Part shown: piece by piece, positions 6,014-46,529 of the stretch
How the letters are laid out: each line of letters starts with the position of its first letter
How positions within the stretch are numbered: the stretch's first letter is position 1
Origin: Oscillospiraceae bacterium
GTDB taxonomy: Bacteria > Bacillota > Clostridia > Oscillospirales > Ruminococcaceae
Direction of reading: 5' to 3'
NCBI GenBank assembly: GCA_017483465.1
Contig: JAFUWN010000076.1
Coordinates: 110,345-174,344, forward strand
DNA length: 64,000 bases
Translations under genes and position numbers: made by a program
The notes under the pieces: model-generated
The model's database searches: none
What the model was told of the DNA's origin: nothing
The model's input: only the letters and a program-made list of their open reading frames with translations

Positions 6014-6014
6014 A

Positions 6015-15502: not shown

Positions 15503-16510
15503 ATGAAACTGCATATTGAAAATCATATCCTGACGGGATATTCCGGAAATCCTGATACTGCCGAACTGCTTCTGTCAGATCATATCCGGAAAATAGAATT
15601 TTATACATTCCGAAACTGGAAAAAACTTGCCTGGATTACACTGCCGGCAGAACTGAAAAGCATTGAATACGGAGCATTTGAAAAATGTCAGGCTCTGAAA
15701 GAAATTCAGTTTCCGGACGGTCTGGAGCATATCGGTCATATGGCATTTCTGCATTGCCATGCTCTGAAAAAAATCGAGATTCCGGAGCATGTGAATCATA
15801 TCGGCTACGGAGCATTTGCAGACTGTGAACAGCTCGAAGAAATCAGCGTTTCCGAAAATAATCCGTATTTTGCCTCTGCTGACGGCTTGTTATATAATAA
15901 AAATTTTACGGAATTATACTGCTGTCCGGCCGGAAAGAAAGCAGTCCGGATTCCTGATACTGTACAGAAAATCCGGAAATTTGCCTTCTGTGGCTGCCGT
16001 CATCTGACAGAAATGCAGATTCCGCAGAGCGTGAATCATATTCAGTACGGAGCATTCCGGAAATGTGAGAATCTGAAACAAATTCTGATTCCCGTTTCTG
16101 TCACACAGTGCGAAAATCCCGATTTTCCTCCGGATACGCTGGTACAGGTGCAGGGAAATTCCGGAATTATGGAATATTATCCCTGTGAAGCCGCTTCGGA
16201 ACTCAGTGCGATTCTGGTGCTGGAAAAAGATTTCTCTGTGAAAATGCCGCATAAAATCAAATATGATCTGATTTTAAGAATGCTCTTTGCCGGAATCTCC
16301 GGTACGGAAAACTATGTCAGGAAAAATTTTTCCAAAATATTCAAATTTCTGATCAGTCAGGATGACCCTGATCAAATCCGGAAAATTCTGGAAATGCAGA
16401 AATTCGTCTCGAAACGCAATATCAGCCGTCTGATCGGCTACGCTGATCAGAATGCCCGTCCGCAGTGCCGTGAAATTTTATCTCATTATAGAGAAGAAAA
16501 ATTTTTATAA
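15503..16510 (+). CDS. BspA-type LRR protein 1 (first gene of the locus), 335 aa
   Basis: LRR_5 protein with about six 22-23 residue repeats of the form IPxxVxxIxxxAFxxCxxL over residues 35-205, including a BspA-type island (SENNPYFASADGLLYN). The C-terminal helical region shared with the other 21 complete paralogs starts at about 238 (EKDFSVKMPHKIKYDLILRM). This copy ends in SHYREEKFL and lacks the WYQ/YQH...LKL tail of its paralogs. The start at 15503 sits 7 bp after GGGAGG; a reading from 15497 would overlap that site. No signal peptide, so it should be cytoplasmic. The MoxR gene follows after 28 bp. Confidence 0.85.
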   Translation: MKLHIENHILTGYSGNPDTAELLLSDHIRKIEFYTFRNWKKLAWITLPAELKSIEYGAFEKCQALKEIQFPDGLEHIGHMAFLHCHALKKIEIPEHVNHIGYGAFADCEQLEEISVSENNPYFASADGLLYNKNFTELYCCPAGKKAVRIPDTVQKIRKFAFCGCRHLTEMQIPQSVNHIQYGAFRKCENLKQILIPVSVTQCENPDFPPDTLVQVQGNSGIMEYYPCEAASELSAILVLEKDFSVKMPHKIKYDLILRMLFAGISGTENYVRKNFSKIFKFLISQDDPDQIRKILEMQKFVSKRNISRLIGYADQNARPQCREILSHYREEKFL

Positions 16511-16538
16511 ATCAATCATCAGTAAGGAGTTTTTTATC

Positions 16539-17654
16539 ATGGAACAGAATTTTATTAAACCGCCCGTAGAAGTCCGCTATGCCGATCAGCTCGCTTTTCT
16601 GAAAGAAAGCGATTTTCAGAATAAAAAGCCTGAAAACTGGCAGTTATCACCGAAATCTGTCAGATTGTTCATCTTAGGCGGAAAGGCCGTCAATCCGGCA
16701 ACCGGAGAAACCATGGACATCAACCGGAAATTCTACGGCAATGACGCTCTTGTCGAAAGATGTATTATTACACTGGCCGGAAACAGAGGCTTAATGCTCG
16801 TCGGTGAACCCGGTACGGCAAAGACTATGCTTTCCGAATTATTCTCGGCTGCCATCTGCGGCAAGAGTACCAATACCGTGCAGGGTACTGCCGGAACTAC
16901 CGAAGATATGATCAAATACAGCTGGAATTATGCCTTGTTATTATCCAAAGGCCCCTGCCGGGAAGCCCTTGTCCCTGCTCCGCTCCTGATCGGCATGGAA
17001 GAAGGTATCTTCGCAAGATTCGAGGAAATTACCAGAACTCCCGCCGAAATTCAGGATAGCCTGATTTCTGTCATGAGTGATCAGATTCTGAATATTCCGG
17101 AACTCGGTGATGACGGTCTGATTCTGGCAAAATCCGGCTTCAATATCATCGGTACGGCAAATACCCGTGATAAGGGTGTCAACGAAATGTCCGGAGCTTT
17201 AAAGCGAAGATTCAATTTCGAGACGGTCGCTCCTGTCCGTGATGTCAGACTGGAAAAAGAAATTATCGTCCGGGAAGCTGTCGATCTCGCTAAAAACGGC
17301 AATATCGGATGTGATGTCAATCAGGATGTCGCCGAACTTCTGGCGATCACATATCATGAATTAAGAGAGGGTATCACCTCAGAAGGCACAATGATCGAAA
17401 AGCCTGCTGCTGTCATGAGTACCGCCGAGGCCGTATCAGTCTATTATCAGACACTCTGTCATGCCTGGTACTACGGTGACGGCAGAATCGAACTCCCTGT
17501 TCTGACAGAAAATCTCCTCGGAGCCGTCTGCAAGGAGAATCGTGATGATCTCGAAAAATTAAAAGCCTATTTCCGGACGGCTGTCAAGGCAAAAAGTTCC
17601 AAAATGGGCGGAATCTGGAAAGCTTATTATGAAACGGCTTCGTTCCTGAAATAA
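16539..17654 (+). CDS. MoxR-type AAA+ ATPase (YehL-like)
   Basis: Cytoplasmic AAA+ ATPase of 371 residues. Walker A is GEPGTAKT (89-96), the Walker B region is ARFEEI (159-164), sensor 1 is IGTANTRD (N208), and the arginine finger region is ALKRRFNF (220-227). MoxR ATPases remodel partner proteins together with VWA-domain proteins. The combination with DUF5682, VWA and SWIM genes further on matches E. coli yehL-yehM-yehP-yehQ. The ATG at 16539 has AAGGAG 10 bp upstream. It lies between LRR genes with gaps of 28 and 34 bp and no terminator, so it is likely part of one long transcript. Confidence 0.92.
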   Translation: MEQNFIKPPVEVRYADQLAFLKESDFQNKKPENWQLSPKSVRLFILGGKAVNPATGETMDINRKFYGNDALVERCIITLAGNRGLMLVGEPGTAKTMLSELFSAAICGKSTNTVQGTAGTTEDMIKYSWNYALLLSKGPCREALVPAPLLIGMEEGIFARFEEITRTPAEIQDSLISVMSDQILNIPELGDDGLILAKSGFNIIGTANTRDKGVNEMSGALKRRFNFETVAPVRDVRLEKEIIVREAVDLAKNGNIGCDVNQDVAELLAITYHELREGITSEGTMIEKPAAVMSTAEAVSVYYQTLCHAWYYGDGRIELPVLTENLLGAVCKENRDDLEKLKAYFRTAVKAKSSKMGGIWKAYYETASFLK

Positions 17655-17688
17655 TTTTGATAAAGAGAAAAGGGAGAATTTAGTATGA

Positions 17689-19515
17689 ATGATCAGAATT
17701 TTTTATTTTGAAACAGATGAGGATGAAGAATATAAGGCTTATTATGATGCCTTGCTGGAAGAGAGCAAAGAACAGGGGTTTGAAATTCAAGATGATGAAT
17801 TAATCAAATATCACGGCAATGACAAAGATATTTTCATTCCGGATATAGTAACAAAAATCAGAGATTATGCATTCTTCGGCTGTTCAAGCCTGCGTTCTGT
17901 GGGAATTGGATCAAATGTAACAAGTATCGGCTGTTTTGCATTTTGCTGCTGTTCACGGCTGGATTCTGTAAGAATCGGAGAGCGAGTAACAAGTATCGGA
18001 CGTTTTGCATTTTGCGGCTGTTCAAGCCTGGAGTCTGTGGAACTCGGAGAAAATGTGACAAGTATCGGAGAGGAAGTGTTTTCCGGCTGTGCAAGTCTGA
18101 CTTCCATAAAAAGCGGAAATCAATTAGCAACTATCGGAAAACGTGCATTTTGCAATTGTAAAAACATCACCTCTGTCACAATGGGAGAAAGCGTGACAAG
18201 CATCGGAGATGAGGCATTTTCCGGCTGTACCGCTCTGGCCTCGGTAAAAATCGGAGACAATGTGACAAGCATCGGAGAAAGGGCATTTTCGTGGACACAG
18301 TGGTTTAAAGATTATCCGGATGATTTTGTTGTACTCGGCGGAATTTTGCTTGCATATAGAGGCCATGACAGCACCGTGATCATTCCGGACGGCATAAAGG
18401 GTATCGCAAGCGAGGTATTTTCAGAATTTGATGATCTGAAATTTGTGATCGTCCCTGAAAGTGTGACAAGTATCGGAGATCATGCATTTCCAGAAAGCGG
18501 ATATAGACCCGCACCGGCCATTGTGTACCTCCCTGACGCTGTGAAGGAGATTGCATATCCTGCACTCCAAAAATTTGAAGATTCGTCTTTTATCCTGAGA
18601 CTGGTTGAATGCACCGGGATTTTCAATACACCATGGCATGAAGCGTATTCCGACGGTTTTATTATCATTGACGGAACTTTGTATCTGTATCTTGGAAATG
18701 ACAGTGCCGTGACCATCCCTGACGGTGTAAAAATCATCGGAGACAGAGCATTCCGGGGTTGCCGTCTGGAATCTGTAGTCATCCCTGACAGTGTGACGAG
18801 TATCGGAAATGAAGCATTTTCGGGCTGCAGATGTCTGAAATCTGTGACCATCCCCGGCAGCGTGACAAGTATCGGAGACAGGGCATTTTCCGAGTGCGAA
18901 TATCTGAAATCCATTTCCATCCCTGCCAGTGTGACAAGTGTCGGAAAAGATCTGGTGGAAGAATATTATGATTTTATAAATCTTGTCGATCATGAACTTA
19001 ATCTGGACTGTATTACAGTTTTTGACTGCAGGTTTGATATCAGAGATTATTATGATAAATATTATGTAGATAATGATCACTATTATGCTGATGAAGATGA
19101 AGACTTACGTGCGGATAGATATGAAACTTACACAAGAATGAGGCAGGAAATTTTTGAACTGCTCATCAATAAGAATTCTGATGTGGGACTGCCTTATGAC
19201 ATGAGGTGTGACTGCATTTGGAATGCACTGAGATACGGGACAAACGGGACAAAAAACAGGAATCTTCTGGAACGGGCACAGGAGTATGCTTCTGGGATTA
19301 TGAAATATCTGCTGGAAAACCCGGAAAAAACCTCGCAAGAAAAGTCGGAAGACATATCGTTTATGCTGGAAGTGAATGTGATCACAAAAGAAAATATTGA
19401 TCAATGCATTTGTACAGCAATCGACAGCAAAGAGTATGAACTTCAGCTCATGCTGACAAATTATAAACAGGAGAAAAAATGGTATCAGAATCCTGATGAA
19501 AATTTAAAATTATAA
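17689..19515 (+). CDS. BspA-type LRR protein 2 (longest), 608 aa
   Basis: Two blocks of LRR_5 repeats (about residues 46-205 and 225-425) are joined by inserts of the type TQWFKDYPDDFVVLGGILLAYRG. A long Tyr/Asp-rich spacer (about 440-485) follows, then the common C-terminal region with ENIDQCICTAI and tail NYKQEKKWYQNPDENLKL. The N-terminus has an extra acidic 30 residues. An ATG at 17685, better placed behind GGGAGAA, runs into a stop after 8 codons (MNDQNFLF). Deleting one T of the T6 run at about 17699-17704 would join it to this frame as MNDQNFYFETDEDEE. The start is therefore uncertain, or the gene is frameshifted at its beginning. Confidence 0.8.
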   Translation: MIRIFYFETDEDEEYKAYYDALLEESKEQGFEIQDDELIKYHGNDKDIFIPDIVTKIRDYAFFGCSSLRSVGIGSNVTSIGCFAFCCCSRLDSVRIGERVTSIGRFAFCGCSSLESVELGENVTSIGEEVFSGCASLTSIKSGNQLATIGKRAFCNCKNITSVTMGESVTSIGDEAFSGCTALASVKIGDNVTSIGERAFSWTQWFKDYPDDFVVLGGILLAYRGHDSTVIIPDGIKGIASEVFSEFDDLKFVIVPESVTSIGDHAFPESGYRPAPAIVYLPDAVKEIAYPALQKFEDSSFILRLVECTGIFNTPWHEAYSDGFIIIDGTLYLYLGNDSAVTIPDGVKIIGDRAFRGCRLESVVIPDSVTSIGNEAFSGCRCLKSVTIPGSVTSIGDRAFSECEYLKSISIPASVTSVGKDLVEEYYDFINLVDHELNLDCITVFDCRFDIRDYYDKYYVDNDHYYADEDEDLRADRYETYTRMRQEIFELLINKNSDVGLPYDMRCDCIWNALRYGTNGTKNRNLLERAQEYASGIMKYLLENPEKTSQEKSEDISFMLEVNVITKENIDQCICTAIDSKEYELQLMLTNYKQEKKWYQNPDENLKL

Positions 19516-19530
19516 GCAGGTGAATCTCTT

Positions 19531-20352
19531 ATGAATCAGGATTTTGAAATCAAAGACGGTGTATTACTTAAATATCATGGTTCCGATCAGGATGTCAGTA
19601 TTCCGGACGGTGTGACAAGTATCGGACAACATGCATTTCAATATTGTAAAAACCTGGTTTCTGTGCATATTCCTGACAGTGTGACGAGAATCAGAGATTT
19701 TGTATTCTGGAACTGTATAAGCCTGACTTCTGTGAATATTCCTGACGGTGTGACCTGTATCGAAGAAGCTGTATTCTGGAACTGTTCAGCACTTACCTCT
19801 GTGAAAATTCCTGACGGCGTTATCGGCATCGGAGATTGTGCATTCTGCCGCTGTTCGGGTCTGACTTCTGTGAATATTCCTGCAAGTGTGAGCTATATCG
19901 GAGAAGATGTATTTTTGAAATGTACCAGTCTGAAACATGCTCCGTTAATGCTGATTGACGGTAATATGCTGTATGAACCAAAAAACAGAAACGGGGTTGA
20001 ATTTTCAGAGATCAAAAGGCTTGTTACATGGAATGACTATTCTATGGAAATGAATGCTGCTGTAAAATATGATCTGATTTTCCAGATGTATGCCCTCGGA
20101 ATAGATCAGGAGGGAACTTCGGACTATATTGCAGAACATTTTTCTGTGATGTTTCCGGTTCTGATTGACAGGAATGATACAGAGATACTCCGGAAAATTC
20201 TGCATTCTGAAATATTTGTCACAGAACAGAATATTGATTCTCTGATTCGATATGCAATTGCTGTACAGAAATATCAGATGCAGCTCATGCTGACAAATTA
20301 TAAACAGGAGAAAAACTGGTATCAGAACCCTGATGAAATTTTAAAATTATAA
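19531..20352 (+). CDS. BspA-type LRR protein 3, 273 aa
   Basis: Opens with MNQDFEIKDGVLLKYHG, the standard paralog N-terminus. Five regular LRR_5 repeats (about 27-145) follow, then KHAPLMLIDGNMLYEPKN, a linker seen in many paralogs. The C-terminal helical region (about 178-273) has KYDLIFQMYALGIDQEG, NIDSLIRYAI and tail KNWYQNPDEILKL. It is 15 bp after the previous gene, with an AGGTG-type ribosome site. No signal peptide. Confidence 0.87.
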   Translation: MNQDFEIKDGVLLKYHGSDQDVSIPDGVTSIGQHAFQYCKNLVSVHIPDSVTRIRDFVFWNCISLTSVNIPDGVTCIEEAVFWNCSALTSVKIPDGVIGIGDCAFCRCSGLTSVNIPASVSYIGEDVFLKCTSLKHAPLMLIDGNMLYEPKNRNGVEFSEIKRLVTWNDYSMEMNAAVKYDLIFQMYALGIDQEGTSDYIAEHFSVMFPVLIDRNDTEILRKILHSEIFVTEQNIDSLIRYAIAVQKYQMQLMLTNYKQEKNWYQNPDEILKL

Positions 20353-20370
20353 TAAGAAAGCGTGTGGATT

Positions 20371-21282
20371 ATGGGTAATTTAATAATTGGGAGTTATCGT
20401 GACCCGCTTCCGGAAGAAACAGGCTCTGACCCTTACAGCGGAAAAGTCGTACTTCCGGAGGGGATGACAAAAATTAAAGACATGCAGTTTTTCAGAAGCG
20501 AACGCATGACTTCGGTCAAGATTCCGGATTCTGTCACCAGTATCGGAGATATGGCCTTTTTAGGGTGCAGTCATCTGACAGAAATCGTCATTCCGCCGGG
20601 AGTTACCACAATCGGCAGCAATGCGTTTCAGGACTGCAAAAATCTCAGAAAGATCGTCATTCCGGAGAGTGTCACCAGTATCGGCAATCTTGCCTTTGAA
20701 GGCACTCCATGGCAGGAAGAATATCCGGATGATTTTGTAATTGTCAATCAGATTCTGGTCAGATACAAAGGCAGTGCAGAAACAGTGACACTTCCGGAGT
20801 CTGTGAAAGAAATTCAGGAATCGGCTTTTTTTCGCTGTGAGCGTATAAAATGGATTCCTGTGCTGATCGCTGACGGGAATCCCATCTGCATAGCAGATTC
20901 CGGCCTGTATCATATCATTTCTCCCCGGGAATACAGCCGGATCAGAAGTCTGGTGCTGAGAAAGAACTATTCTGTTTCCATGTTCACAGGCCGGAAATAT
21001 GATCTGATTGCACAGATGTTCCTGTATGATCTCGACCCTGACGGCACTGTGCGGTATATCCGGAAGCATTTTACCAATTTCTTCATGTATCTGATTATTG
21101 CAGGCCATATCAAAACAATCCGGAAAATTCTGGATTCCGGAAAGTTTCTCCTGAAACGCAATATGGATGAATATCTTAAATATGCGATTGCCAATCAGAA
21201 GCATGAAATTTATCTGCTTCTGATCGAATATAAACAGAAACATGACTGGTATCAGACTCCGGGTCAGAATCTGGAATTATAG
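20371..21282 (+). CDS. BspA-type LRR protein 4, 303 aa
   Basis: Atypical N-terminus (MGNLIIGSYRDPLPEETGS). Four LRR_5 units follow to about residue 110, then the insert GTPWQEEYPDDFVIVNQILVRYKG and one more unit. The common C-terminal region ends KHDWYQTPGQNLEL, where the usual LKL is LEL. The ATG at 20371 is chosen; a GTG at 20362 in frame is possible. The ribosome site is weak (AAGAAAG), so translation may depend on the upstream gene 18 bp away. Confidence 0.83.
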   Translation: MGNLIIGSYRDPLPEETGSDPYSGKVVLPEGMTKIKDMQFFRSERMTSVKIPDSVTSIGDMAFLGCSHLTEIVIPPGVTTIGSNAFQDCKNLRKIVIPESVTSIGNLAFEGTPWQEEYPDDFVIVNQILVRYKGSAETVTLPESVKEIQESAFFRCERIKWIPVLIADGNPICIADSGLYHIISPREYSRIRSLVLRKNYSVSMFTGRKYDLIAQMFLYDLDPDGTVRYIRKHFTNFFMYLIIAGHIKTIRKILDSGKFLLKRNMDEYLKYAIANQKHEIYLLLIEYKQKHDWYQTPGQNLEL

Positions 21283-21303
21283 AACGATAGGCAGGTGAAC
21301 CGT

Positions 21304-21987
21304 ATGCATGTAAAAGATTGCAAAATGCAGGGCACGACTCTGCTGATCTATGAGGGCGAGGGCGGAAATATTGTCATTCCGGACGGTGTGACGGAAATCG
21401 GCGGCTATGCCTTTGCGGACTGCCAATCCCTGACCGGTATCTGTCTCCCGGACAGTGTGACAAAAATCGGCAGCATGGCATTTTTTGCCTGTGAGAATCT
21501 GACTTCTTTCCGGATTCCGTCACATGCCGAAATCGGTAACGATGCCTTTTTCGGCTGCTGGGGACTGAAACGCCGGCCCATGATGTTCGCTGACGGAAAA
21601 CTGCTCTATATGCCGGAAAATTCTTTTCTGCCTTCATACCATGAGGTCAGAAAACTGGTACTCGAAAAAGATTATACTGTCCGGCTGGATGTGGATATCA
21701 AATACGATCTGACGGCTCAGATTTTTCTGCTTGACCTTGACCCCGAGGGAAGTGCCGTGTATCTCCGGAAAAATTTTTCCCATATTTTCAAGTATCTGAT
21801 CTTCTGGAACAGAATGGCCGAAATCCGGAAAATTGTGGAGTCCGGGAAGTTTTTGTCAAAACGTAATCTGGATATTTATATTAAATATGCTATTAAAAAG
21901 CAGAGACATGAAATTTATCTGCTCCTGACAGAACTGAAGCAGAAAAATAACTGGTACCGGGAGATTGATCAGAAATTAAAATTATAG
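21304..21987 (+). CDS. BspA-type LRR protein 5, 227 aa
   Basis: Three LRR_5 repeats (about 23-90) are followed by RPMMFADGKLLYMPEN and the shared C-terminal region (DIKYDLTAQIFLLDLDPEG, NLDIYIKYAI), with tail NNWYREIDQKLKL. The ATG at 21304 lies 6 bp after AGGTGA. Without the third full repeat array of larger paralogs, it offers a small LRR surface. No signal peptide. Confidence 0.85.
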   Translation: MHVKDCKMQGTTLLIYEGEGGNIVIPDGVTEIGGYAFADCQSLTGICLPDSVTKIGSMAFFACENLTSFRIPSHAEIGNDAFFGCWGLKRRPMMFADGKLLYMPENSFLPSYHEVRKLVLEKDYTVRLDVDIKYDLTAQIFLLDLDPEGSAVYLRKNFSHIFKYLIFWNRMAEIRKIVESGKFLSKRNLDIYIKYAIKKQRHEIYLLLTELKQKNNWYREIDQKLKL

Positions 21988-22001
21988 GCAGGTGGAATGC
22001 T

Positions 22002-22670
22002 TTGTCATTTGAAATTCAGAATCATATTTTATTCAGATATAAAGCCGAAAACCAGGAAACACATGTCATCATCCCGGACGGTGTGGAAATTATCGGCAGA
22101 CAGTCTTTTTTCTGGTCGAAATATCTGGAAGTTCTGACCATTCCGCCGAGTGTCCGGGTCATAGAAAACAATGCATTTGAACGCTGCCGTGATCTGAAAG
22201 AAATCCGGATTACAGAAGGCATTGAACATGTGGAGCAATATGCATTCCGTGACAGCATGAGAATTCAGCGGCTGATCTACCGAAACAGACCTGTTCTGAT
22301 GAATCATGTCCATATCTGCATGGCTCTGGAAATACTGTTTCATAAAAATCTCCGTTCCGGCATGTGTCTGCCGGAAGTCATCCGGTATGACATGGTCAAA
22401 GCCATGTTCCTGGAAGAACCGGATAATAAAAAAATTATAAAATATATGCAGAAAGATTTCCTGAGAGTCTGGCTCTATATGATCGAAAACAATCATTGTG
22501 AATGCCTGGAAAAAATGCTCGAATCCGGAGAATTTGTGAATCAGAAAAATATAGATACAATGATTCTGTATGCAATCAAAAATCAGAAATATCAGATTCA
22601 GCTTATGCTGACGGATTATAAACGGCAGAAAGGCTGGTATCAGGAGATTGATCAGAAATTAAAATTATAG
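22002..22670 (+). CDS. BspA-type LRR protein 6 (TTG start), 222 aa
   Basis: Three LRR_5 units (about 20-90), then the common C-terminal region with NIDTMILYAI and tail KGWYQEIDQKLKL. The start is a TTG at 22002 behind GCAGGTGG (SFEIQNHILFRY matches the paralog N-termini). The nearby ATG at 21996 is in another frame. The gap to the previous gene is 14 bp. Confidence 0.82.
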   Translation: MSFEIQNHILFRYKAENQETHVIIPDGVEIIGRQSFFWSKYLEVLTIPPSVRVIENNAFERCRDLKEIRITEGIEHVEQYAFRDSMRIQRLIYRNRPVLMNHVHICMALEILFHKNLRSGMCLPEVIRYDMVKAMFLEEPDNKKIIKYMQKDFLRVWLYMIENNHCECLEKMLESGEFVNQKNIDTMILYAIKNQKYQIQLMLTDYKRQKGWYQEIDQKLKL

Positions 22671-22684
22671 AAAAGGGGAATCCT

Positions 22685-23350
22685 ATGTCTCTGGAACTGT
22701 ATCAGCAGCTGCTGCTGAAATATATCGAAGATGAAGACCGCAAAGAAGTCATCATTCCGGAGGGTGTCAGAGAAATCGGAGAACGGACATTCTATCGCTG
22801 TCAAGCTCTGGAGAAAGTCACGCTTCCGGCGAGTCTGTACCGAATCAGCAATTTTGCATTTCAAAGCTGTGAAAAGCTCTCCTGTATCGAGCTTAAAAAT
22901 TATGTCTATAATACCGGCTATACGTCAGTTCATAACTGTCCGAATCTGAAACATGTCATCCTGCACGGAACTGAAATTCCGGTCGGCCTTGCCGGAACCC
23001 GCTCCCTGAGTGCAGCCTTTCAGATGATCGCAGAGAGAACTTTCTTTCAGGTGTCGGCTGAAAATAAAATGCTGGTCTGGCATATGTTCCAGGCTGACCC
23101 CAAAGATATGAAAATTATGCTCTATATCGGCAAAAATTTTGACGAACTGTTCCGGATTCTGATTGATATGCACCAGTTGGAAATTATGAAAAAATTCCTC
23201 CTGGCCGGAAAATTCCTGATCGAAAAAAATATTGATGATTATATTCAGTATGCCAATCAGAAACAGCGTTATGAAGAACAGATTCTGCTGACAGAATATA
23301 AATTCCGGACATATTCTGTTCCGGATATTGACGAGAAATTAAAATTATAA
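22685..23350 (+). CDS. BspA-type LRR protein 7, 221 aa
   Basis: Two clear LRR_5 units (about 19-70) and a degraded third, then a divergent C-terminal region (NKMLVWHMFQADPKD, NIDDYIQYANQKQRY). The tail EYKFRTYSVPDIDEKLKL belongs to neither main tail type. AAAAGGGG precedes the ATG. It is the last LRR gene before the DUF5682 gene. Confidence 0.82.
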   Translation: MSLELYQQLLLKYIEDEDRKEVIIPEGVREIGERTFYRCQALEKVTLPASLYRISNFAFQSCEKLSCIELKNYVYNTGYTSVHNCPNLKHVILHGTEIPVGLAGTRSLSAAFQMIAERTFFQVSAENKMLVWHMFQADPKDMKIMLYIGKNFDELFRILIDMHQLEIMKKFLLAGKFLIEKNIDDYIQYANQKQRYEEQILLTEYKFRTYSVPDIDEKLKL

Positions 23351-23374
23351 TATGCAGAAAGGATGAAAGCCCCC

Positions 23375-25732: not shown

Positions 25733-25747
25733 CAGGAGTGATTTTTC

Positions 25748-26881: not shown

Positions 26882-26895
26882 CAGGAGTGGTTTTC

Positions 26896-28005: not shown

Positions 28006-28535
28006 GCACTTCTGATTTTGAAATTGAAAATCATATTCTGAAAAAATATCTGGGAGATGAGCAGGTGCTTGTCATTCCGGATTCTGTAACCGGCATTGAG
28101 AGCTATGCCTTTTCCGACTGTCAGAATCTGAGAAAAATCATTATTCCGGACAGTGTACAATATTTCGGAAAATTTGTCTTTTCCGGCTTTGAAAATCGGG
28201 AAACTGCTTTTGTCCGGTACGGAATTGAAGTCACTGATACGTATCTGATAGAAAATGCTCTGGAATACACGGAATCTCTGAAAGCATTTCTGGAACATCC
28301 TGAAGATCAGGGACTTTGTCAGAAAATAAAAGAACACATGCCGTTTCTGTTTCATATTGATACCGAGCATTTTAAAATCTGTCTGGAATCCGGTAAAATT
28401 TTCGATCAGCGACATATAAATTTCTATATCCGGTATGCCAACTGGAAACAGCTCTATGAAAAGCAGATCTTATTAACTGAATATAAACATCAGCATTTCG
28501 GTTCTGATGATATTGGAGAAAAATTGAAATTATGA
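28002..28535 (+). CDS. BspA-type LRR protein 10 (shortest complete one), 177 aa
   Basis: Only two LRR_5 units (about 22-65) precede the second-class C-terminal region, which ends DIGEKLKL. ATGA overlap with both neighbours. Its minimal LRR part with an intact C-terminal region suggests the latter is the essential common module. Confidence 0.85.
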   Translation: MSTSDFEIENHILKKYLGDEQVLVIPDSVTGIESYAFSDCQNLRKIIIPDSVQYFGKFVFSGFENRETAFVRYGIEVTDTYLIENALEYTESLKAFLEHPEDQGLCQKIKEHMPFLFHIDTEHFKICLESGKIFDQRHINFYIRYANWKQLYEKQILLTEYKHQHFGSDDIGEKLKL

Positions 28536-36523: not shown

Positions 36524-36538
36524 GCAGGTGAATTGAGC

Positions 36539-37561: not shown

Positions 37562-37604
37562 GCAGATATAATATATAAATTTATTATCAAGGGGAGAATT
37601 TGAA

Positions 37605-39023: not shown

Positions 39024-39706
39024 ATCAGAATTATTTTGAAATTCAGGAACATAAATTACTGAAATATTCCGGTCAGGAGACAGAAGTTTCCATTCCGGAA
39101 GATGTGACATGCATTGCTTCCGGTGCATTTGAACACTGCGAATCTATGGAACATCTGATTGTTCCGGAAAGCGTGAAGCAGATCGAAGCCGAAGCATTTC
39201 ATTATTGTACGGGTCTTAAAGATATTACAATCTATAGCAGAAAAATGCCGTTTCTGAAATATCATATGCCGTTTTTACGGTTCTTTTGCGAAAGCGACTG
39301 TGTGCTGGAACACGGGGCTGACAATTTCCTGAGAATCTGCATTAACGGCGAGATTATGCCCTATCGGGAGTTAGGCTATTACAGACATGAATATATATTT
39401 GATCTGCTGGAGCCTCTGCCGGATTCTGAAAAATTCCGGAATATGCTTCAGGAATATGCAGATGTCTTTCTATACTGCCTGCTGAATGACGATCTCAGAA
39501 AAAGCGATGTCACAAGATACCGGAAAGAAACCAAAGAAGAAATCTTTCAGAAAATGCTTGCTGCCAATATGTTTACAGAAGCCAATATTGATACCTGTAT
39601 CAGCGTGACAGTCGAGATGAAAGATGTAACGATCAGGCCTCTGCTGATAGATTTTAAATATCAGCACTGTAATTTTCAGAATCCGGCAGATCAGCTGAAG
39701 TTATAA
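39020..39706 (+). CDS. BspA-type LRR protein 21 (degenerate LRR part), 228 aa
   Basis: Only two good LRR_5 units (about 22-70) before a divergent region (SRKMPFLKYHMPFLRFF). The C-terminal region has NIDTCISVTVEMKDVTIRPLLIDFKYQHCNFQNPADQLKL, where a Phe replaces the usual Tyr of YK. ATGA overlap with the previous gene. Confidence 0.83.
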   Translation: MNQNYFEIQEHKLLKYSGQETEVSIPEDVTCIASGAFEHCESMEHLIVPESVKQIEAEAFHYCTGLKDITIYSRKMPFLKYHMPFLRFFCESDCVLEHGADNFLRICINGEIMPYRELGYYRHEYIFDLLEPLPDSEKFRNMLQEYADVFLYCLLNDDLRKSDVTRYRKETKEEIFQKMLAANMFTEANIDTCISVTVEMKDVTIRPLLIDFKYQHCNFQNPADQLKL

Positions 39707-39724
39707 TCAACAGGAGATTTAATC

Positions 39725-40222
39725 ATGAATCAGGATTTTGAAATCAAAGACGGTGTAGTGATCAAATATCACGGCTCTGACAAAGATGTGATCATTCCGG
39801 ATGGTGTAACAGCAATCGGAAAGAAAGTATTTTATAAATATTACAATCTGCACTCTGTGAAAATTCCCGACAGTGTGACCAGTATCGGAGAAATGGCATT
39901 CCGGCACTGTCTGGAACTGACCTCTGTCACGCTTCCGCATGGTATCACAAAAATCGAAGGATATACTTTCAAGTATTGTATCAATCTGAAATCTGTGGAA
40001 ATTCCTGATAATGTGACCAGTATCGGGAGTCATGCATTTGCATGTTGTACAGGGCTGACTTCTGTCCGGCTCCCTGCCGGCATAAAAGTGATCGAAGCAG
40101 AGGCGTTTATTGGCTGTACCAGACTGAAACACGCTCCTCTGATACTCGTGGGAAAACAAATGCTGTATCAGCCGAAAAATACAGTGTATCTTAATTTTCC
40201 GGAAATTAAATTTAATTTATAA
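39725..40222 (+). CDS. BspA-type LRR protein 22, lacking the common C-terminal region, 165 aa
   Basis: Opens MNQDFEIKDGVVIKYHGSDKD and has five regular LRR_5 repeats (about 25-135), then KHAPLILVGKQMLYQPKN. It ends at PEIKFNL where paralogs continue for another 90-100 residues. No remnant of the missing part is evident in the 14 bp before the next gene, so the truncation is clean. Either an LRR-only variant or a decaying copy. Confidence 0.8.
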   Translation: MNQDFEIKDGVVIKYHGSDKDVIIPDGVTAIGKKVFYKYYNLHSVKIPDSVTSIGEMAFRHCLELTSVTLPHGITKIEGYTFKYCINLKSVEIPDNVTSIGSHAFACCTGLTSVRLPAGIKVIEAEAFIGCTRLKHAPLILVGKQMLYQPKNTVYLNFPEIKFNL

Positions 40223-40236
40223 CAAGGAGAATTTCT

Positions 40237-40917
40237 ATGATGAAAGATTTTGAAATCAAAGACGGTGAACTAATCGGATATCACGGAAAAAAGCAAAATA
40301 TTATCATTCCGGACGGTGTGAAAATGCTCGCAAACAAGCTGTTTTCTGAATGTAATATTCTGACTTCTGTGATGATCCCGGAAAGTGTGGAATATATCGG
40401 CAGTTTTGCATTTTTCAAATGTGAAAATCTGAGATCCGTAACGATCAGAAACAATTCCGTATGGATCGGAGACGGGGCATTTTATGCCTGTCCGAAACTG
40501 AATTCTGTCAACTGCTGCGGTATCTCCTTTCATCCTCAGGAAGCAGATGATTCTATGACAGAAAGAATTCTGCATATGCTTGCCAGAAAGGAATATGATC
40601 TCACAATTCCGAAAGAAAGAAAATATCCGGTACTCTGGGAAGTTTACTGTGCTTGTCCGGAGCAGAAAGAAATTTCTGATTATATAAATCAAAATCTTCC
40701 TGAAATGCTTCTCTTTCTGATCGAGAATGAAAATCATGAAAATGCGGAAATACTGAAAAAAATCCTGAATCTGGAAACGCTTGTCACAGAAAAGAATATT
40801 AATGAATTGATTCAGTATGCCATTGATCATCATAAATATCAAATGCAGCTGATACTGACAGAGTATAAAAAAGACAAAGCATGGTATCAGGAGATTGATG
40901 ATAAATTTAAATTATAA
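40237..40917 (+). CDS. BspA-type LRR protein 23, 226 aa
   Basis: Three LRR_5 units (about 24-95), then the first-class C-terminal region (NINELIQYAI) with tail KAWYQEIDDKFKL, where the usual LKL is FKL. AAGGAG stands before the ATG pair at 40237/40240. Last LRR gene; the SWIM gene follows after 23 bp. Confidence 0.85.
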   Translation: MMKDFEIKDGELIGYHGKKQNIIIPDGVKMLANKLFSECNILTSVMIPESVEYIGSFAFFKCENLRSVTIRNNSVWIGDGAFYACPKLNSVNCCGISFHPQEADDSMTERILHMLARKEYDLTIPKERKYPVLWEVYCACPEQKEISDYINQNLPEMLLFLIENENHENAEILKKILNLETLVTEKNINELIQYAIDHHKYQMQLILTEYKKDKAWYQEIDDKFKL

Positions 40918-40940
40918 TATGCAGAAAAGGGGTAATAATT

Positions 40941-42947
40941 ATGAATCCGTTACAGCAGGCTCTTGCCGATGCCGATGAAAATTATTTTATCGGCATTTCC
41001 AATAAAGGTATTTATAAACGGGCATGTAAAGATCTTGAAGAAGCAGATATTTCCGTCAGTATGCAGGACGATCAGGCAGAAATCCAGATCAGCGGAGAAA
41101 CCTGTCTGATTAAAAATCCGCTGTGGGAGAGTACTTGTTCCTGTCCGTCCCGGAGTGTCTGCCGACACCTGATTTCTGCTATGCTCTGGCTCAAAGAACA
41201 TGCAGATTCTGATACAGAAGCCGAAGAACCGGACTTCCCTGAAGAAGAAATCCCGGATGGCCTCCCCGAAATGCTCAGACAGGAGCTTTCACAGGTCAGT
41301 ACTGCTCAGATCAGAAAAGCCGCCGGGAAAAATTTACAGAATTTCTTATCTGAAATCGAAAAAATTCAGCTCGAAGAAAGCAGTATCTTATCCGGCACAC
41401 TTCCGGACGGAACTGCCGTCCGGCTGGTCTATCCGCTGGCAAATGCAACATGTGCATGTCATAAGAAAGAATTATGTCAGCATAAAGCCGCTGTGATTCT
41501 GGCATGGCAGCTGAAAGAACAGCTGATTCAGATTTCTGATTTTCAGGAACAGGTAAAAATGCTCTCTGCATCTGAAAATCTTACCATCCGTGAAAGTGCC
41601 GGAAGAAGCTACGCTTTGTTATGTGATGTCCTGAAATGGGGGCTTGTCAGAATGCCCGAAAATATGGCCGAACATCTCGAAGCCTCCGCTGTGCAGAGCC
41701 ATGCCCTCCGGATGGCTGAGGCCGAAAAAATGCTCCGTGATCTGGGGAACAGGCTTTCTGACTGCCGGGAACGCCGTACCGTCTTTCAGGCCGACAGCTT
41801 CAGAAAAAAACTTTGTGACTGTGCCGATTATTTATATACTCTGCATACACAGGAAATTTCTGAAGAAATGCTCGGACAGTTCCGCCGGAGCTATGAAGCT
41901 CTCGCAGAAGATCTGACTATTCTGCCTGTCGGACAGAGAAATGTCAATAATTCCGAATATGCCGGAGAAATTTATTATTTCCTGAATCTTGACGAATCTG
42001 CCGAACAGAGATTCCTGATCTTCTCCGATATCCGGCCTGTTTTCTATGAAGGCGTGAAAAATCCGCACAGGAGAGATGTTGTCATCCCGTGGAATGCCGG
42101 TGTGCCGATGAAATCTCTCATGAAATCGAAAATGACGCTCAAAAATGCCAAAATCAGTGACGGAAAATTATCCGGCTCGAAAGAAACGCTGATCGCCATG
42201 AAATCCACTGCAAATCTGAACTGCCCGGAATTGCAGAATTTAATCTATACGGATTTCAGAAAACTCGCCGTTGACTGTGCTCAGAATGAATCGAATCCGG
42301 AGCATTTGTATTTTATCTATGCAAAAACCTGTATCAGCAGCCGTTTCGATACGCATTTGCAGAAATATCAGATGGAAATTGCCGATATACAGGGAAATAT
42401 GATTACAATACAAGTCCGCTATCAGGCCGAAACAAAAGAATTTATCCAGCTTCTGGAAAAAATCGGTGAAGATCTGCTTGCACATCCGGATAAAATCTAC
42501 ACATGGCTGTGTTCGGCTTATTTTGAAAACGGCCGTCTTATGCTGTTTCCGATCGAAGTCTATGATTTTATTGAGATTCCGGTACAGAAAGAATATGTTC
42601 TTTCCTCGAAATACAGCAATACCAAACCCGTCTATGCGAACCAGATTCTAAGATTATTACAGGATATTCAGGATGAGTTATCCGGTCTGCTCCAGAGCGG
42701 TTTGCAGTCAGCGACAGGAAATAATCTGAATCAGTTCTCCGAACAGGCTAAAAAATCCGGAATGCAGGGCTTGTCAGAATTGCTGCTGCAATTCCGGCAG
42801 TCAGCCGAACAGCAGAGGCATTCAACAAAAGAAGACCTTTCACAGGTCATGCAGGATTATACAGCGATTCAGAATTATATCCGGATTGGTCTGGAAAAAC
42901 TGGAGATTCTCTGTGCCTTAGAGCATATGCGTCCGAAAGGAATTTAA
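40941..42947 (+). CDS. SWIM zinc-finger protein (YehQ-like), 668 aa
   Basis: Cytoplasmic partner of the MoxR/VWA system. It has two SWIM-type CxCx5CxH zinc motifs, C66/C68/C74/H76 (CSCPSRSVCRH) and C171/C173/C179/H181 (CACHKKELCQH). SWIM domains usually bind nucleic acid or proteins. The rest is mixed alpha/beta with YFLNLDESAEQRFLIFSD and IPWNAGVPMKSLMK and a helical C-terminus. The closest known arrangement is E. coli YehQ. The start has AAAAGGGG 12 bp upstream. Confidence 0.87.
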   Translation: MNPLQQALADADENYFIGISNKGIYKRACKDLEEADISVSMQDDQAEIQISGETCLIKNPLWESTCSCPSRSVCRHLISAMLWLKEHADSDTEAEEPDFPEEEIPDGLPEMLRQELSQVSTAQIRKAAGKNLQNFLSEIEKIQLEESSILSGTLPDGTAVRLVYPLANATCACHKKELCQHKAAVILAWQLKEQLIQISDFQEQVKMLSASENLTIRESAGRSYALLCDVLKWGLVRMPENMAEHLEASAVQSHALRMAEAEKMLRDLGNRLSDCRERRTVFQADSFRKKLCDCADYLYTLHTQEISEEMLGQFRRSYEALAEDLTILPVGQRNVNNSEYAGEIYYFLNLDESAEQRFLIFSDIRPVFYEGVKNPHRRDVVIPWNAGVPMKSLMKSKMTLKNAKISDGKLSGSKETLIAMKSTANLNCPELQNLIYTDFRKLAVDCAQNESNPEHLYFIYAKTCISSRFDTHLQKYQMEIADIQGNMITIQVRYQAETKEFIQLLEKIGEDLLAHPDKIYTWLCSAYFENGRLMLFPIEVYDFIEIPVQKEYVLSSKYSNTKPVYANQILRLLQDIQDELSGLLQSGLQSATGNNLNQFSEQAKKSGMQGLSELLLQFRQSAEQQRHSTKEDLSQVMQDYTAIQNYIRIGLEKLEILCALEHMRPKGI

Positions 42948-42968
42948 AAAATTTTTCAAAAAAATTTC

Positions 42969-43006: not shown

Positions 43007-43067
43007 GAATCATAGTAAAACAAGCCTATCATATTTTATAGATTTATAATAAAGGAGTTATGTAATT

Positions 43068-46000
43068 ATGATGTACGCAAATCAGACAATCAGCAATTCT
43101 TATCCGGCTCTGATGGAGGCTTTCTTCGAGACCGGAGTCCTGAAAGAAACAATCAGCCTCGCCGAACAGTATCTGAATCTTGAAAATGAAAGAGATAATG
43201 CTCTGCTCAACCGGATAGAAAAACAGGATTTTTCTCAGTATCTCAATACTTACAGCCTTCGCACACAGAAGATTGAAAAGGCTGTCAAGAAAGAAATCAG
43301 CCGGAAAAATTCTGATGAACTTGAAGAAAGATTTTATTTATTAATCCATGCCATCGCCGGAGATGCCTGCTCTGTCTTAGGCTTGTATGAAGCCAATTCA
43401 GATTATAAAAGCCGAAGCCAGAGAATCAAAGAGGCTTTTGCTTCCCGGTTCGGTGAGGACAGCACGGCGATTTACTTAGCGATTACCTGTGCCCGGATGT
43501 TCAATACCAGAACCATCGGCTATACCATGCCGAGCCGTCCGGAAGATCAGGACGAAACACCGGAAGTCTGCCTGAAAGCCGTTTCCTATACGGATAATAT
43601 CTATGCCAAAATTTATTTTACAATCTTAGCAATGCAGAATCTTATCCCGCCGGAACGTAAAAATATTCTGGATTCTTTCAAGGATATTTTCACCGGTGCT
43701 AAGAAAGATTCTCTGATTCAGAATGCTATGCAGATTATGGATACTGTTATCATTCCGGAAAGCAGGACGATCACAGAAAAAACAATGTTCAGAATCGCCT
43801 TGGCTATGGCAAGCGATTATGATAAAAAATATTTTATTTTATTCAATCAGGAACTGCCGCATAATCAGGCAAGTTTTGCAGAAGCGGTTCTGAAATCTCA
43901 GCTCGATAAAGACAGAATCTTAGATGCTGTCGAACGTTCGGACAAGCTTTCTCCAGGCTATATCGGAGTCATCGCCAATGCCTTTGAAGAAACTGAACGG
44001 AATTCATGGTATCAGAGCCTGAAACATAAAAAACAGCGTCTCGAAAACTTAGCAAAGAAATTCCCGAAAGTTTTCCGTGCAAGAATGGAGATGGAAACAA
44101 ATATCACCGTCTGCCGTGAAATGGAAGACATTCTGAAAAAGCTTGATCCTTCCTATCAGGGCGGTAACATGCAGGAAAAGGCAAAGCGTATCTGCATGAA
44201 TACCATCGCAGAACATAATAAAGATTATAAATATCAGATTGAAAAATATCTGCTCGGCTCCATGAGCACGGAAGATTTTATCAGAGATGTTCTGCCCCAT
44301 CTGCATCCGACCAATGTCGGCTATGTCTACGGCGGAAAAGTACAGTATGCATCTGCATATGGACTGGATGAGTTCGCAGAAAGATGTATCTGCTACAGAA
44401 TTTTAAGAGATTATGATTTCTATTCTGTTCTGAGTTCTCTCCCCGGATATGATTTCAAAGACCATGAAGCAAATGTGATCGAAATTCTCCGCAGGCATGA
44501 AGTACCCATGATTTATATTATGAATCATATCATGGTTATGCTGAATAATGTTTACAGCAACAGAAGTGAAATCTATCAGAGAACCATTCAGAAATTAACA
44601 GAATATGCTGATGAAATCGCTCAGCTTGATCTGAAATCCCTGAATGTAGAATCCAGATGTGCCAGAATCGAGATTTTAGGTAAAACCGATCAGAAAAAAT
44701 ATAATGCTGAATTATTCGCTTCTGCTAAGGATTCCAGTAAGAAAGTCAGAGATACGCTCGCTGATTATCTGCCGATTCCGGATGAGAATTTAAATCCGGA
44801 GATTCTGAATCTGCTCTCCGGAAAGAAAATCGCTGAAAGAGAACTCGCCGTGACACTCCTGGAAAAGAAATTCCCCGATGCCTATCAGGATGCTGTCAGA
44901 ACAGCTCTCGAAAAAGAAAAGAATGATAAATTAATCACAAGATTATCAATTTTATTAAATCAGGAAATTCCGGAAGCCACAAAACAGGCCAATGCCGGAA
45001 ATGTAATCGACGAACTCACCAAAGGCAATAAGGCAAAGAAAGTCGCCTGGTTATTCCAGAATGCGTTCAGTCCGGTGCATGATATTTCGGGAAATGAAGT
45101 GGAGGAAAAATATCTGATCGCCCTCGCAAACTGCTATGCTTCCATGGATATTTGCAAATTCTCCAGAAGCGAAACAGCTGATCAGCTGGCTCAGAATCTG
45201 AATCAGACTGATCGGGAACGTTTTGTTCAGGAAGTGTTCAGCAGATTTATCGACAGAGGTGCAGAGGCCAAACAGAAATGGGTTATCTATTTTACTGCAA
45301 TTTTAGGCGGTTCTGAGGGTATCGCTTCGGTACAGCATTATATTAAAGAATGGTCTGAAAATTCCAGAGGTGCAATCGCCGCCGAAGCGGTCAGAGCTTT
45401 GGCATTCAACGGCAGTTCTCCGGCTCTGATGGCAGTCGATGCCATGGCTCGGAAATTCAAGAATAAACAGGTTCGCAATGCTGCAAATACGGCTCTGGTA
45501 CAGGCCGCCGAAGCTCTGCATATCACCCGTGAGGAACTTGCTGACAGAATTGTCCCTGATCTCGGCTTTGATGAAAATCTGTGCAGAATTTTCGATTACG
45601 GTACAAGACAGTTTAAAGTCTATCTGACTCCGGCTCTGGAACTCGAAATCTTTGAGGGAGATAAGAAACTGAAAAATCTTCCGAAGCCCGGAAAATCAGA
45701 TGATGCCGAAAAAGCAGAACAGGCTTCCAAAGATTTCAAAGAAATGAAAAAGCAGATGAAAACAGCAATCCAGAATCAGAAAGCCCGTCTGGAATATGTC
45801 TTCTTATGCGACAGAAAATGGACTCCCGATGCCTGGAAAGCTCTGTTTATTCACAAGCCTGTCATGCATTGCTTTGCGATCGGCCTGATCTGGGGAGCTT
45901 ATGATGAACAGGATAAGCTTCTGCAAACGTTCCGGTATATGGAAGACGGCTCTTTCACAACTTCCGATGAAGAGGAATATGAACTCCCTGAAAATGCCGT

Positions 46001-46529
46001 AATCGGCTTAGTTCATCCGATTGAACTGGATAAAGAAACTATCAGTGCCTGGACAGAACAGCTCTCTGATTATGAGATCACACAGCCGTTCGCTCAGTTA
46101 AACAGACCTGTTTATAAAATTCTTGCCGAAGAAGTCGGCAAGACAACGATTCAGAGATTCTCCGGCACGGAACTGACGAATTTATCGCTGATTAATAAAA
46201 TGACAAAAATCGGCTGGGAAAAAGGCCACGCCGAAGATGCCGGCATGTTCTATGATTTCGAGAGAACCGATATTGCAAAACAGGAAAAAATCAATGATAA
46301 AATGCAGTATACCGGCTATTATGCAGAACTCCGGTTCAGCGGTTCGTATATCGCCGCCGGCTATATGGATGCCGAAGATGTGACTGTCGAAGATGTCAGA
46401 ATCTGGAAACTCTCCGATCAGATCAAAAATGACAACGCTCTGAATCTGGAGCAGGTCAATCCCAGATATTTCAGTGAAATTCTGGCTCAGTTATATGAAA
46501 TGCTTCCGCAGGAAGAAAACAACGCTTGA
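43068..46529 (+). CDS. DUF4132 family protein (MolR/YehI-like), 1153 aa
   Basis: Very large cytoplasmic protein. The N-terminal 860 residues are helical, with HEAT-like stretches around 560-640 and 770-850 (SARDSSKKVRDTLADYLPI-like units, RGAIAAEAVRALAFNGSS). The DUF4132 domain occupies about 895-1060, with EYVFLCDRKWTPDAWKALFIHKPVMHCFAIGLIWGAYD and ENAVIGLVHPIEL. In E. coli the homologous gene (molR/yehI) lies beside yehL-yehQ, which supports a common function. AAGGAG is 10 bp before the ATG pair 43068/43071. Confidence 0.87.
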   Translation: MMYANQTISNSYPALMEAFFETGVLKETISLAEQYLNLENERDNALLNRIEKQDFSQYLNTYSLRTQKIEKAVKKEISRKNSDELEERFYLLIHAIAGDACSVLGLYEANSDYKSRSQRIKEAFASRFGEDSTAIYLAITCARMFNTRTIGYTMPSRPEDQDETPEVCLKAVSYTDNIYAKIYFTILAMQNLIPPERKNILDSFKDIFTGAKKDSLIQNAMQIMDTVIIPESRTITEKTMFRIALAMASDYDKKYFILFNQELPHNQASFAEAVLKSQLDKDRILDAVERSDKLSPGYIGVIANAFEETERNSWYQSLKHKKQRLENLAKKFPKVFRARMEMETNITVCREMEDILKKLDPSYQGGNMQEKAKRICMNTIAEHNKDYKYQIEKYLLGSMSTEDFIRDVLPHLHPTNVGYVYGGKVQYASAYGLDEFAERCICYRILRDYDFYSVLSSLPGYDFKDHEANVIEILRRHEVPMIYIMNHIMVMLNNVYSNRSEIYQRTIQKLTEYADEIAQLDLKSLNVESRCARIEILGKTDQKKYNAELFASAKDSSKKVRDTLADYLPIPDENLNPEILNLLSGKKIAERELAVTLLEKKFPDAYQDAVRTALEKEKNDKLITRLSILLNQEIPEATKQANAGNVIDELTKGNKAKKVAWLFQNAFSPVHDISGNEVEEKYLIALANCYASMDICKFSRSETADQLAQNLNQTDRERFVQEVFSRFIDRGAEAKQKWVIYFTAILGGSEGIASVQHYIKEWSENSRGAIAAEAVRALAFNGSSPALMAVDAMARKFKNKQVRNAANTALVQAAEALHITREELADRIVPDLGFDENLCRIFDYGTRQFKVYLTPALELEIFEGDKKLKNLPKPGKSDDAEKAEQASKDFKEMKKQMKTAIQNQKARLEYVFLCDRKWTPDAWKALFIHKPVMHCFAIGLIWGAYDEQDKLLQTFRYMEDGSFTTSDEEEYELPENAVIGLVHPIELDKETISAWTEQLSDYEITQPFAQLNRPVYKILAEEVGKTTIQRFSGTELTNLSLINKMTKIGWEKGHAEDAGMFYDFERTDIAKQEKINDKMQYTGYYAELRFSGSYIAAGYMDAEDVTVEDVRIWKLSDQIKNDNALNLEQVNPRYFSEILAQLYEMLPQEENNA

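Follow-up and report, generated by a model that had tools for sequence, protein, structure and literature searches.

A MoxR-VWA gene set of the yehI-yehL-M-P-Q type threaded with leucine-rich repeat genes in a Ruminococcaceae genome

MoxR-VWA chaperone pairs, each formed by a MoxR-type AAA+ ATPase and a VWA protein, serve one or few clients. They are described as ATP-driven maturation chaperones, and for NorQD the metal ion-dependent adhesion site (MIDAS) of the VWA protein has been argued to bind the target (PMC9976466; this source, PMC7159879 and PMC11674859 are cited for the portions available). In E. coli, both kinds of protein are encoded in the locus yehI-yehK-yehL-yehM-yehP-yehQ; besides E. 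coli, many genomes of Ruminococcus and Lachnospiraceae carry a set of the yehI-yehL-M-P-Q type, for which no function is given among the literature matches listed. The same five families occur in a 64,000-nucleotide stretch of an Oscillospiraceae bacterium of the Ruminococcaceae (assembly GCA_017483465.1, contig JAFUWN010000076.1, positions 110,345 to 174,344; hereafter the window), whose source genome (2.9 Mb, 118 contigs, 95% complete) is labelled G000 in comparisons. Here, five core genes encoding MoxR, DUF5682, VWA, SWIM and DUF4132 proteins stand in that order at 15497-46529, all on the + strand, and are interleaved with 23 LRR_5-type leucine-rich repeat (LRR) genes. The LRR genes are split 1/6/10/6 over four slots: J0 (5' of MoxR), J1 (between MoxR and DUF5682), J2 (between DUF5682 and VWA) and J3 (between VWA and SWIM). 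The five proteins are 25-45% identical to those of E. coli (45, 25, 40, 27 and 31% to YehL, YehM, YehP, YehQ and YehI over the aligned parts), and the locus is a form of the yehI-yehL-M-P-Q type set that is particular to one clade and threaded with LRR genes; in E. coli MG1655 no LRR genes stand among the five. Pfam and the positions of the open reading frames (ORFs) thus bear out an earlier note on this stretch as to families, numbers, slots and strand. That note also gave the whole set the E. coli order; the relative order of the yehL-M-P-Q homologues is indeed the same, whereas the DUF4132 gene (yehI) comes first in MG1655 and last in the window, a circular permutation. New here are a C-terminal domain (CTD) common to the LRR proteins, their lack of signal peptides, the fixed slots and a ribosome-binding site lying in the end of the upstream gene. 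Among the matches listed in open-licence PMC papers, no LRR-interleaved locus appeared in titles or the starts of abstracts.

Four core proteins match their Pfam families (AAA_5, DUF5682, VWA_CoxE and DUF4132) above the cut-off, and the SWIM match is 0.1 bit short of it (19.5 against 19.6 bits), with two CxCx(n)CxH motifs supporting the identity. DUF4132, DUF5682 and a VWA of the VWA_CoxE type each occur once in the genome, as the earlier note had expected of the core. The VWA protein is 72-93% identical to 11 homologues in the genus, and its MIDAS residues (D226-S228-S230, T285 and D311) are invariant across 12 aligned sequences. Because the Walker A motif of MoxR and the DxSxS-T-D MIDAS of the VWA protein are both intact, as in NorQ/NorD, CbbQ/CbbO and RavA/ViaA, the window pair likely shares the general working mode of NorQD-type pairs; for those three pairs no LRR repertoire is described in the available portion of PMC9976466, whereas the window has one. 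A MoxR AAA+/VWA pair accompanied by variable parts is also the plan of the MoxR-vWA ternary conflict systems (Kaur et al., 2020; PMC7159879). There, however, the variable parts are domains fused to the VWA protein, whereas in the window they are separate LRR genes, and the adaptor-type domain that core and satellite proteins of conflict systems have in common has no counterpart in the CTD. The main text of PMC7159879 has no mention of SWIM, DUF4132 or leucine-rich. None of the five core proteins gave a Pfam match at E 0.01 to VMAP, iSTAND, FtsH or a beta-propeller, the presence of VMAP and iSTAND models in Pfam being unconfirmed, and a bpMoxR match was below the Pfam cut-off.

The CTD, a helical domain without a family name, is present in 22 of the 23 locus LRR proteins, most of which end in hydrophobic-x-Leu. 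An AlphaFold2 model of the LRR19 CTD scored a pLDDT of 90.1 and a pTM of 0.79, and the LRR19 model consists of the LRR and the helical CTD, nothing more. The sole exception, LRR22 (39725-40222), ends in EIKFNL and looks as if its CTD had been deleted and a tail-like end retained. By a hydrophobicity test (threshold 1.9), a signal-peptide-like N-terminus was found in none of the 23 locus proteins, the highest of which scored 1.61 with the corrected LRR18 start, and in none of 22 LRR-CTD proteins elsewhere in the genome, as against 23 of 29 LRR_5 proteins without a CTD (19/24 and 4/5). These 29 come from retrieved stretches and are a subset of the genome, and one run dropped two LRR genes cut by contig ends. 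The genome therefore holds two LRR_5 populations, and the view of the earlier note that the locus LRR proteins are intracellular is supported. Since they have no signal-peptide-like start, secreted adhesins or cellulosome parts, suggested by a GH9-dockerin gene upstream, were rejected as an explanation for them. BspA-type LRR_5 proteins (TpLRR, PcpA and Bacteroides LRR proteins) have the same LRR fold, and their PDB titles call them surface or LRR proteins, whereas the locus proteins have no signal-peptide-like starts and carry the CTD. STAND/NLR-type LRR sensors differ in fusing an NTPase to the LRR; none was detected by Pfam in the two of the 23 window LRR proteins scanned.

The ends of the LRR-CTD genes carry a second signal. 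Intergenic distances run from -4 to 43 bp as far as SWIM, in agreement with the earlier note's limit of 43 bp, and the SWIM-DUF4132 spacing is 120 bp; the figures assume starts at 16539 for MoxR (instead of 16452, as relatives begin MEQNF or similar) and at 35714 for LRR18, both picked by comparison with relatives and sister genes. Among the 71 gaps lying 3' of LRR-CTD genes in LRR-bearing loci, 23 are exact -4 overlaps in which stop and start share ATGA; slot J2 has eight in succession, from LRR09-LRR10 through LRR16-LRR17. At all 23 overlaps the 20 bases that precede the start, which belong to the upstream gene, contain a Shine-Dalgarno-like motif, and at 18 it sits in Gly-Glu codons right ahead of the Leu-x-Leu type end. 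Where an LRR-CTD gene does not overlap its successor, this stretch has the motif in only 4 of 48 cases; outside the locus it is present in 2 of 22 genes, and none of the 22 has Gly-Glu there. This contrast argues that the hydrophobic end is kept as protein, while at overlaps the preceding codons serve translation of the next gene. Overlapping LRR-CTD genes are head-to-tail units, and many of the locus LRR genes are translationally coupled, with the next ribosome-binding site inside the last codons of the upstream gene. Terminator-like hits between 16600 and 36500 were not in excess (10 over both strands, 5 of them on +, against 15.6 in shuffled sequence).

In the favoured reading, which is given a probability of about 0.4, the LRR-CTD proteins are interchangeable target-recognition subunits of the MoxR-VWA machine. 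They would be cytoplasmic; the N-terminal BspA-type LRR solenoid would bind the target, and the constant helical CTD with its flexible hydrophobic-x-Leu end would dock on a common partner. In this clade the partner would be the MoxR-VWA-DUF5682-SWIM-DUF4132 machine, which would then remodel the bound target with ATP, remodelling being the presumed fate of the target. The anatomy of a variable binding part, a constant helical part and a flexible conserved end fits adaptors that bring targets to a machine. If the LRR-CTD proteins are target readers, their LRR surfaces and the CTD give direct handles on the machine's targets, and bacteria would have, in a large set of cytoplasmic LRR proteins that share a single constant domain, a striking counterpart to receptor repertoires. 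Should the partnership prove loose, the cassette layout, with the end of each paralogue serving as start signal for its successor, still accounts for the growth of a gene family within an intact operon. Chance or mis-annotation was rejected, as the domains, the CTD and the slot pattern all recur in other assemblies.

Table 1. Features of the LRR-threaded locus, in window positions
Feature	Position	Strand	Remarks
Terminator-like stem and T-run	15344..15371	+	3' of GH9-dockerin gene; 12-pair stem, T-rich tail; pattern match
LRR01, slot J0, LRR-CTD gene	15497..16510	+	LRR_5 E 2.7e-40; CTD present
MoxR-type AAA+ ATPase (YehL-like)	16539..17654	+	AAA_5 E 7.6e-31; Walker A GEPGTAKT
Slot J1, six LRR-CTD genes LRR02-LRR07	17689..23350	+	starts 17689, 19531, 20362, 21295, 22002, 22685
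DUF5682 protein (YehM-like)	23363..25732	+	PF18934 E 2.2e-87
Slot J2, ten LRR-CTD genes LRR08-LRR17	25748..34516	+	
VWA (CoxE-like) protein, YehP-like	34534..35679	+	PF05762 (VWA_CoxE) E 9.9e-41; MIDAS motif
Slot J3, six LRR genes LRR18-LRR23	35714..40917	+	starts 35714, 36533, 37605, 39020, 39725, 40237
CTD example, LRR19 residues 220-342	37190..37558	+	helical bundle, low-confidence tail ending Leu-Lys-Leu
SWIM zinc-finger protein (YehQ-like)	40941..42947	+	PF04434 19.5 bits; two CxCx(n)CxH motifs
DUF4132 protein (YehI/MolR-like)	43068..46529	+	PF13569 E 4.1e-51; weak HEAT match

The LRR genes of the operon are restricted in both place and lineage. Among the best 80 of 101 loci of relatives around VWA, LRR-CTD genes lie between core genes in seven (L097-L102 and L119), and none was found there in the other 73, chiefly from Ruminococcus and Lachnospiraceae, within the extent of each stretch. 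Eleven genomes of the genus, G000 included, have LRR genes at the operon, confined to slots J0-J3; the SWIM-DUF4132 junction is assembled in nine of them and holds no LRR gene in any. On a core tree of 84 rows (omitting L097-L107, which lie on the same contigs as genus genomes, seven more duplicates and rows of at most 700 residues, and still containing L127 as a duplicate of G019), the 11 LRR-bearing genomes need 2 changes, a value as low as this being reached in 0 of 500 shuffles. Ten of them make up a single clade, to which a bare group (G003, G012, G016 and G033) is sister, and the eleventh, G026, stands apart; from this placement the bare operon, which is also the commoner form, is probably ancestral, and G026, whose row is 48% filled, would call for a second gain or, with a single gain, for a loss. 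From J0 to J3 the slots hold 1/6/10/6 in G000, 5/5/6/3 in G008, 1/1/0/0 in G014, at least 2/0/2/1 in G018 and 1/0/2/0 in G029, and partial, owing to contig ends, in the remaining genomes; the slot table was reduced from 85 to 83 rows, as genes of G008 (J2) and G014 (J1) had been double-counted at fetch borders. With the VWA protein so conserved and LRR number changing slot by slot between species, the contrast of a conserved machine with a variable LRR set, drawn in the earlier note, holds. CTDs of one slot also tend to cluster across species: seven labels (four slots and three outside groups) need 30 changes on the CTD tree, compared with 71.6 in shuffles. That tree has 117 rows, namely 77 locus genes with an intact CTD end, 22 genes elsewhere in G000, 15 of G024 and 3 of G005. 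LRR01 is the most orthologue-like member, as one J0 copy each of G000, G008, G018, G027 and G029 cluster with a support of 81. Recurring neighbours of LRR arrays, 637-639 amino acids long, proved to be unrelated proteins.

A link between LRR genes and DUF4132 recurs in a second lineage. In G019, a distant species whose DUF4132 and MoxR genes lie on different contigs, stretch L239 has seven tandem LRR genes (1805-9950) head-to-head with a lone DUF4132 gene (10133-13498), about 0.2 kb apart. Their ends are of a divergent CTD type, finishing in RL, and a profile built without G019 rows recognises the CTD in six of the seven, whereas the narrow A1 profile does so in one (E 6e-4). With 13 broad-profile matches in G019, part of them matched by construction, a simple simulation gave a probability of about 0.02 that at least one of 13 CTD genes, each placed independently in a genome of this size, would land no more than 200 bp from DUF4132. 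LRR and DUF4132 are also joined, together with WGR, in a single protein, LIC_12901 of Leptospira interrogans (PMC11674859), whose DUF4132 is the family of the last gene of the window locus; in Leptospira the parts are fused and the phylum is distant, and no CTD or MoxR gene is mentioned in the available portion of that source. LRR genes 3.3 kb from DUF4132 in G022, with other genes between, and 2.4 kb away in G011 were too loose to count. After a GH9-like gene, comparable to the one upstream in the window, the G011 stretch L085 (3173-12930) has an LRR-CTD gene that may be broken; a second, divergent DUF4132 gene lies 2.4 kb beyond it on the other strand, and the stretch is perhaps a decayed relative of the window site.

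CTD genes are not confined to the operon, even in the source genome. In G000, 46 CTD profile matches were obtained at E 0.01 (the weakest three near 2e-4, one of them with stops), and of the LRR-CTD genes read outside the locus, 15 of 22 are single and 7 stand in small tandems. The first CTD profile matched 24 of 61 genomes, all within the genus, and a broader one 28 of 38 genus genomes; in 390 other genomes of the class, 2 matched the narrow and 7 the broad profile, which was built including the two class relatives found by the narrow one (L095 and L096). Profile A5 includes four G019 rows as well as L095 and L096, so that the G019 calls made with it and the G300 and G220 matches are by construction; the G019 link is based on the profile built without G019 rows. 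Core genes are present in 13 of 15 genus genomes with at least five CTD genes, compared with 12 of 23 others (p 0.039, uncorrected for kinship).

Several results weigh against a strict partnership. About half of the G000 matches (24 of 46) fall outside the locus, with 22 at it. In G024, which is 100% complete at 5% contamination, 22-23 CTD genes were counted, a good number of them in arrays, and DUF4132, DUF5682 and VWA are missing, MoxR and SWIM not having been searched for there; G005 (77% complete) has eight CTD genes, likewise without these three families. The hydrophobic-x-Leu end is kept in 18 of 18 CTD proteins examined from the two, so CTD and tail are maintained without DUF4132, DUF5682 and VWA genes. 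Conversely, the machine does not need CTD genes, as fewer than five are present in 12 of the 25 genus genomes that have core genes; taken together, neither part needs the other. The core proteins of LRR-bearing species have four private fixed sites in total, and the collected core proteins have no CTD-like domain (best profile E 0.52, hhalign probability at most 1.1%). Homotypic docking through a CTD also fused to a core protein was accordingly rejected, and the search for a core docking site through clade-specific fixed changes was uninformative with so few sites. The G019 profile scores are modest (E 3e-8 to 4e-6) and all fall in one 13.5-kb stretch, and most compared genomes are fragmented metagenome-assembled genomes. 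To these is added the selection on orthologues, which is purifying and not diversifying, as set out below.

Much of this evidence would suit an autonomous LRR family for which the operon is a home, acting with a partner of its own or alone and growing by tandem duplication, its link to the machine being co-expression only. Such a family is a reasonable if unfavoured possibility. Its copies could spread without harm to the operon, because many carry the next gene's ribosome-binding site, and about half of the G000 matches lie elsewhere, most of the LRR-CTD genes read there being single. Tandem arrays with CTD and end motif kept occur in G024 and G005 without the core families searched, as in the arrays of four to six LRR-CTD genes of G024 (L089, L090 and L091). 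LRR03, LRR08, LRR18, LRR19 and LRR23, from three slots, cluster with one outside-locus copy at a support of 84, and this cluster looks as if copies had spread within the operon and beyond. The fixed slots, the copies lying on the operon strand, the slot-specific sub-families recurring across species and the LRR cluster beside DUF4132 in G019 all argue against autonomy. On the CTD tree, the G026 copies are joined by the 3 from G005 and by 11 of the 15 from G024, whose other four lie elsewhere; on an RpoB tree of 21 genomes (30 were wanted and 9 gave no match), G024 pairs with G013, apart from the main LRR-bearing clade.

Genes for chaperones and for their clients often lie side by side, and the LRR-CTD proteins could themselves be clients that the MoxR-VWA machine folds, assembles or disposes of, much as NorQD matures cNOR. 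The known role of MoxR-VWA pairs as maturation chaperones (PMC9976466) would agree with this, and a C-terminus that is flexible, hydrophobic and conserved would be fitting for a tag that an AAA+ machine recognises. However, many machine-bearing species have few or no LRR-CTD genes, and the many of G024 persist without DUF4132, DUF5682 and VWA, which makes the client explanation unlikely.

Selection was compared over 26 orthologue pairs from five close species, taken as reciprocal best hits above 55% identity, by which the fastest pairs were omitted. The ratio of nonsynonymous to synonymous divergence (dN/dS) was 0.272 for the LRR part, 0.252 for the CTD and 0.097 for the core, and the 95% bootstrap interval for LRR minus CTD (-0.03 to 0.07) indicates no difference. 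Synonymous divergence of LRR-CTD genes was 0.36-0.38, against 0.72 for adjoining core genes (G018, G020, G025, G027 and G447), about half that of the core, which makes the LRR ratio unsafe to set against that of the core. Both the LRR and the CTD parts of the orthologues kept are under purifying selection; arms-race selection on the LRR was not found in the 26 pairs, and it is the number of genes that varies, the orthologues retained showing no fast change.

These results bear on whether the locus is an anti-phage or self/non-self defence system whose LRR receptors sense foreign proteins, as the earlier note had considered. LRR presence and number do differ between close species, and related but distinct MoxR-vWA systems have been argued to be conflict systems (PMC7159879). 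A further point is exchange at the locus: between G018 and G027 (stretches L059 and L065), synonymous divergence is as low as 0.11 in MoxR, 0.04 over the opening quarter of DUF5682 and 0.01-0.02 in one J0 LRR gene, and as high as 0.60-0.84 over the remainder of DUF5682 and 0.73 in SWIM. This recombination-like mosaic, seen as a single example, has its edge inside a core gene. Against defence stand the purifying selection, the absence of a PADLOC-DB 2.0 match to the five core proteins or LRR08 (two of the 23 LRR proteins were scanned; LRR19 matched Csn2 at E 4.8e-4 and 18 bits, taken as chance) and the absence of any CTD match in phage or plasmid collections. Pfam, moreover, detected neither a nuclease or NADase nor a membrane effector domain in the seven proteins scanned, which were the five core proteins and two LRR proteins. 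Of ten flanking proteins, none matched a defence family, and five matched no Pfam family. Upstream genes are similar in G000, G008 and G027, indicating a stable chromosomal site in these genomes. With gene-number variation and one sign of exchange as its positive evidence, a defence role is possible in principle and very unlikely here.

In a wider form of the favoured reading, the AAA+/VWA machine would draw on a large stock of intracellular LRR receptors that can replace one another, some encoded in the operon and others scattered; the genes of the array would be plug-in cassettes, and the core genes homology anchors through which species exchange cassette blocks. The last codons of each cassette would both end the docking tail and provide the ribosome-binding site of the next gene. 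As a whole this extended scheme is doubtful. For the recognition-subunit reading itself, already advanced in the earlier note as an AAA+/VWA complex using LRR proteins as selectors, the constant CTD, the coupling and the G019 layout count in favour, and the G024 CTD genes without DUF4132, DUF5682 and VWA, together with the lack of diversifying selection, count against. As to the possibly foreign targets suggested in that note, the PADLOC, phage and plasmid, and flanking-gene searches gave nothing that links the locus with defence against phage. Absence of LRR genes from close relatives, with no variation elsewhere, had been named as the finding that would speak against selectors; they are absent from the sister clade and vary strongly within the LRR-bearing clade. 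The earlier interpretation is plausible and partly supported.

Core gene order varies further among relatives. Ten loci have the permuted order VWA-SWIM-DUF4132-MoxR-DUF5682 (L118, L121, L123 from Ruminococcus flavefaciens, L126, L128, L131, L136, L145, L146 and L147). The core genes of L146 (JAMPEF010000009.1), titled Alistipes senegalensis, nest among those of Ruminococcus, and the contig is probably mis-binned. In the Lachnospiraceae loci L153, L167 and L174, a common ORF of 113-122 amino acids (EEFF.DI..ILEDLCQSGF.TVHDSTL) lies between SWIM and DUF4132 and is a possible sixth component there. In the window, the upstream side (1999-15329) encodes the carbohydrate-active enzymes GH95, GH26 with CBM35 and GH9 with CBM3 and dockerin, and the terminator-like element that follows them (Table 1) is probably the 5' boundary of the operon. 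On the downstream side, a small lipoprotein-like ORF (46584-47225) lies 3' of DUF4132, preceded by a promoter-like site rated good at 46526-46554, and its homologues lie near DUF4132 in four other LRR-bearing genomes.

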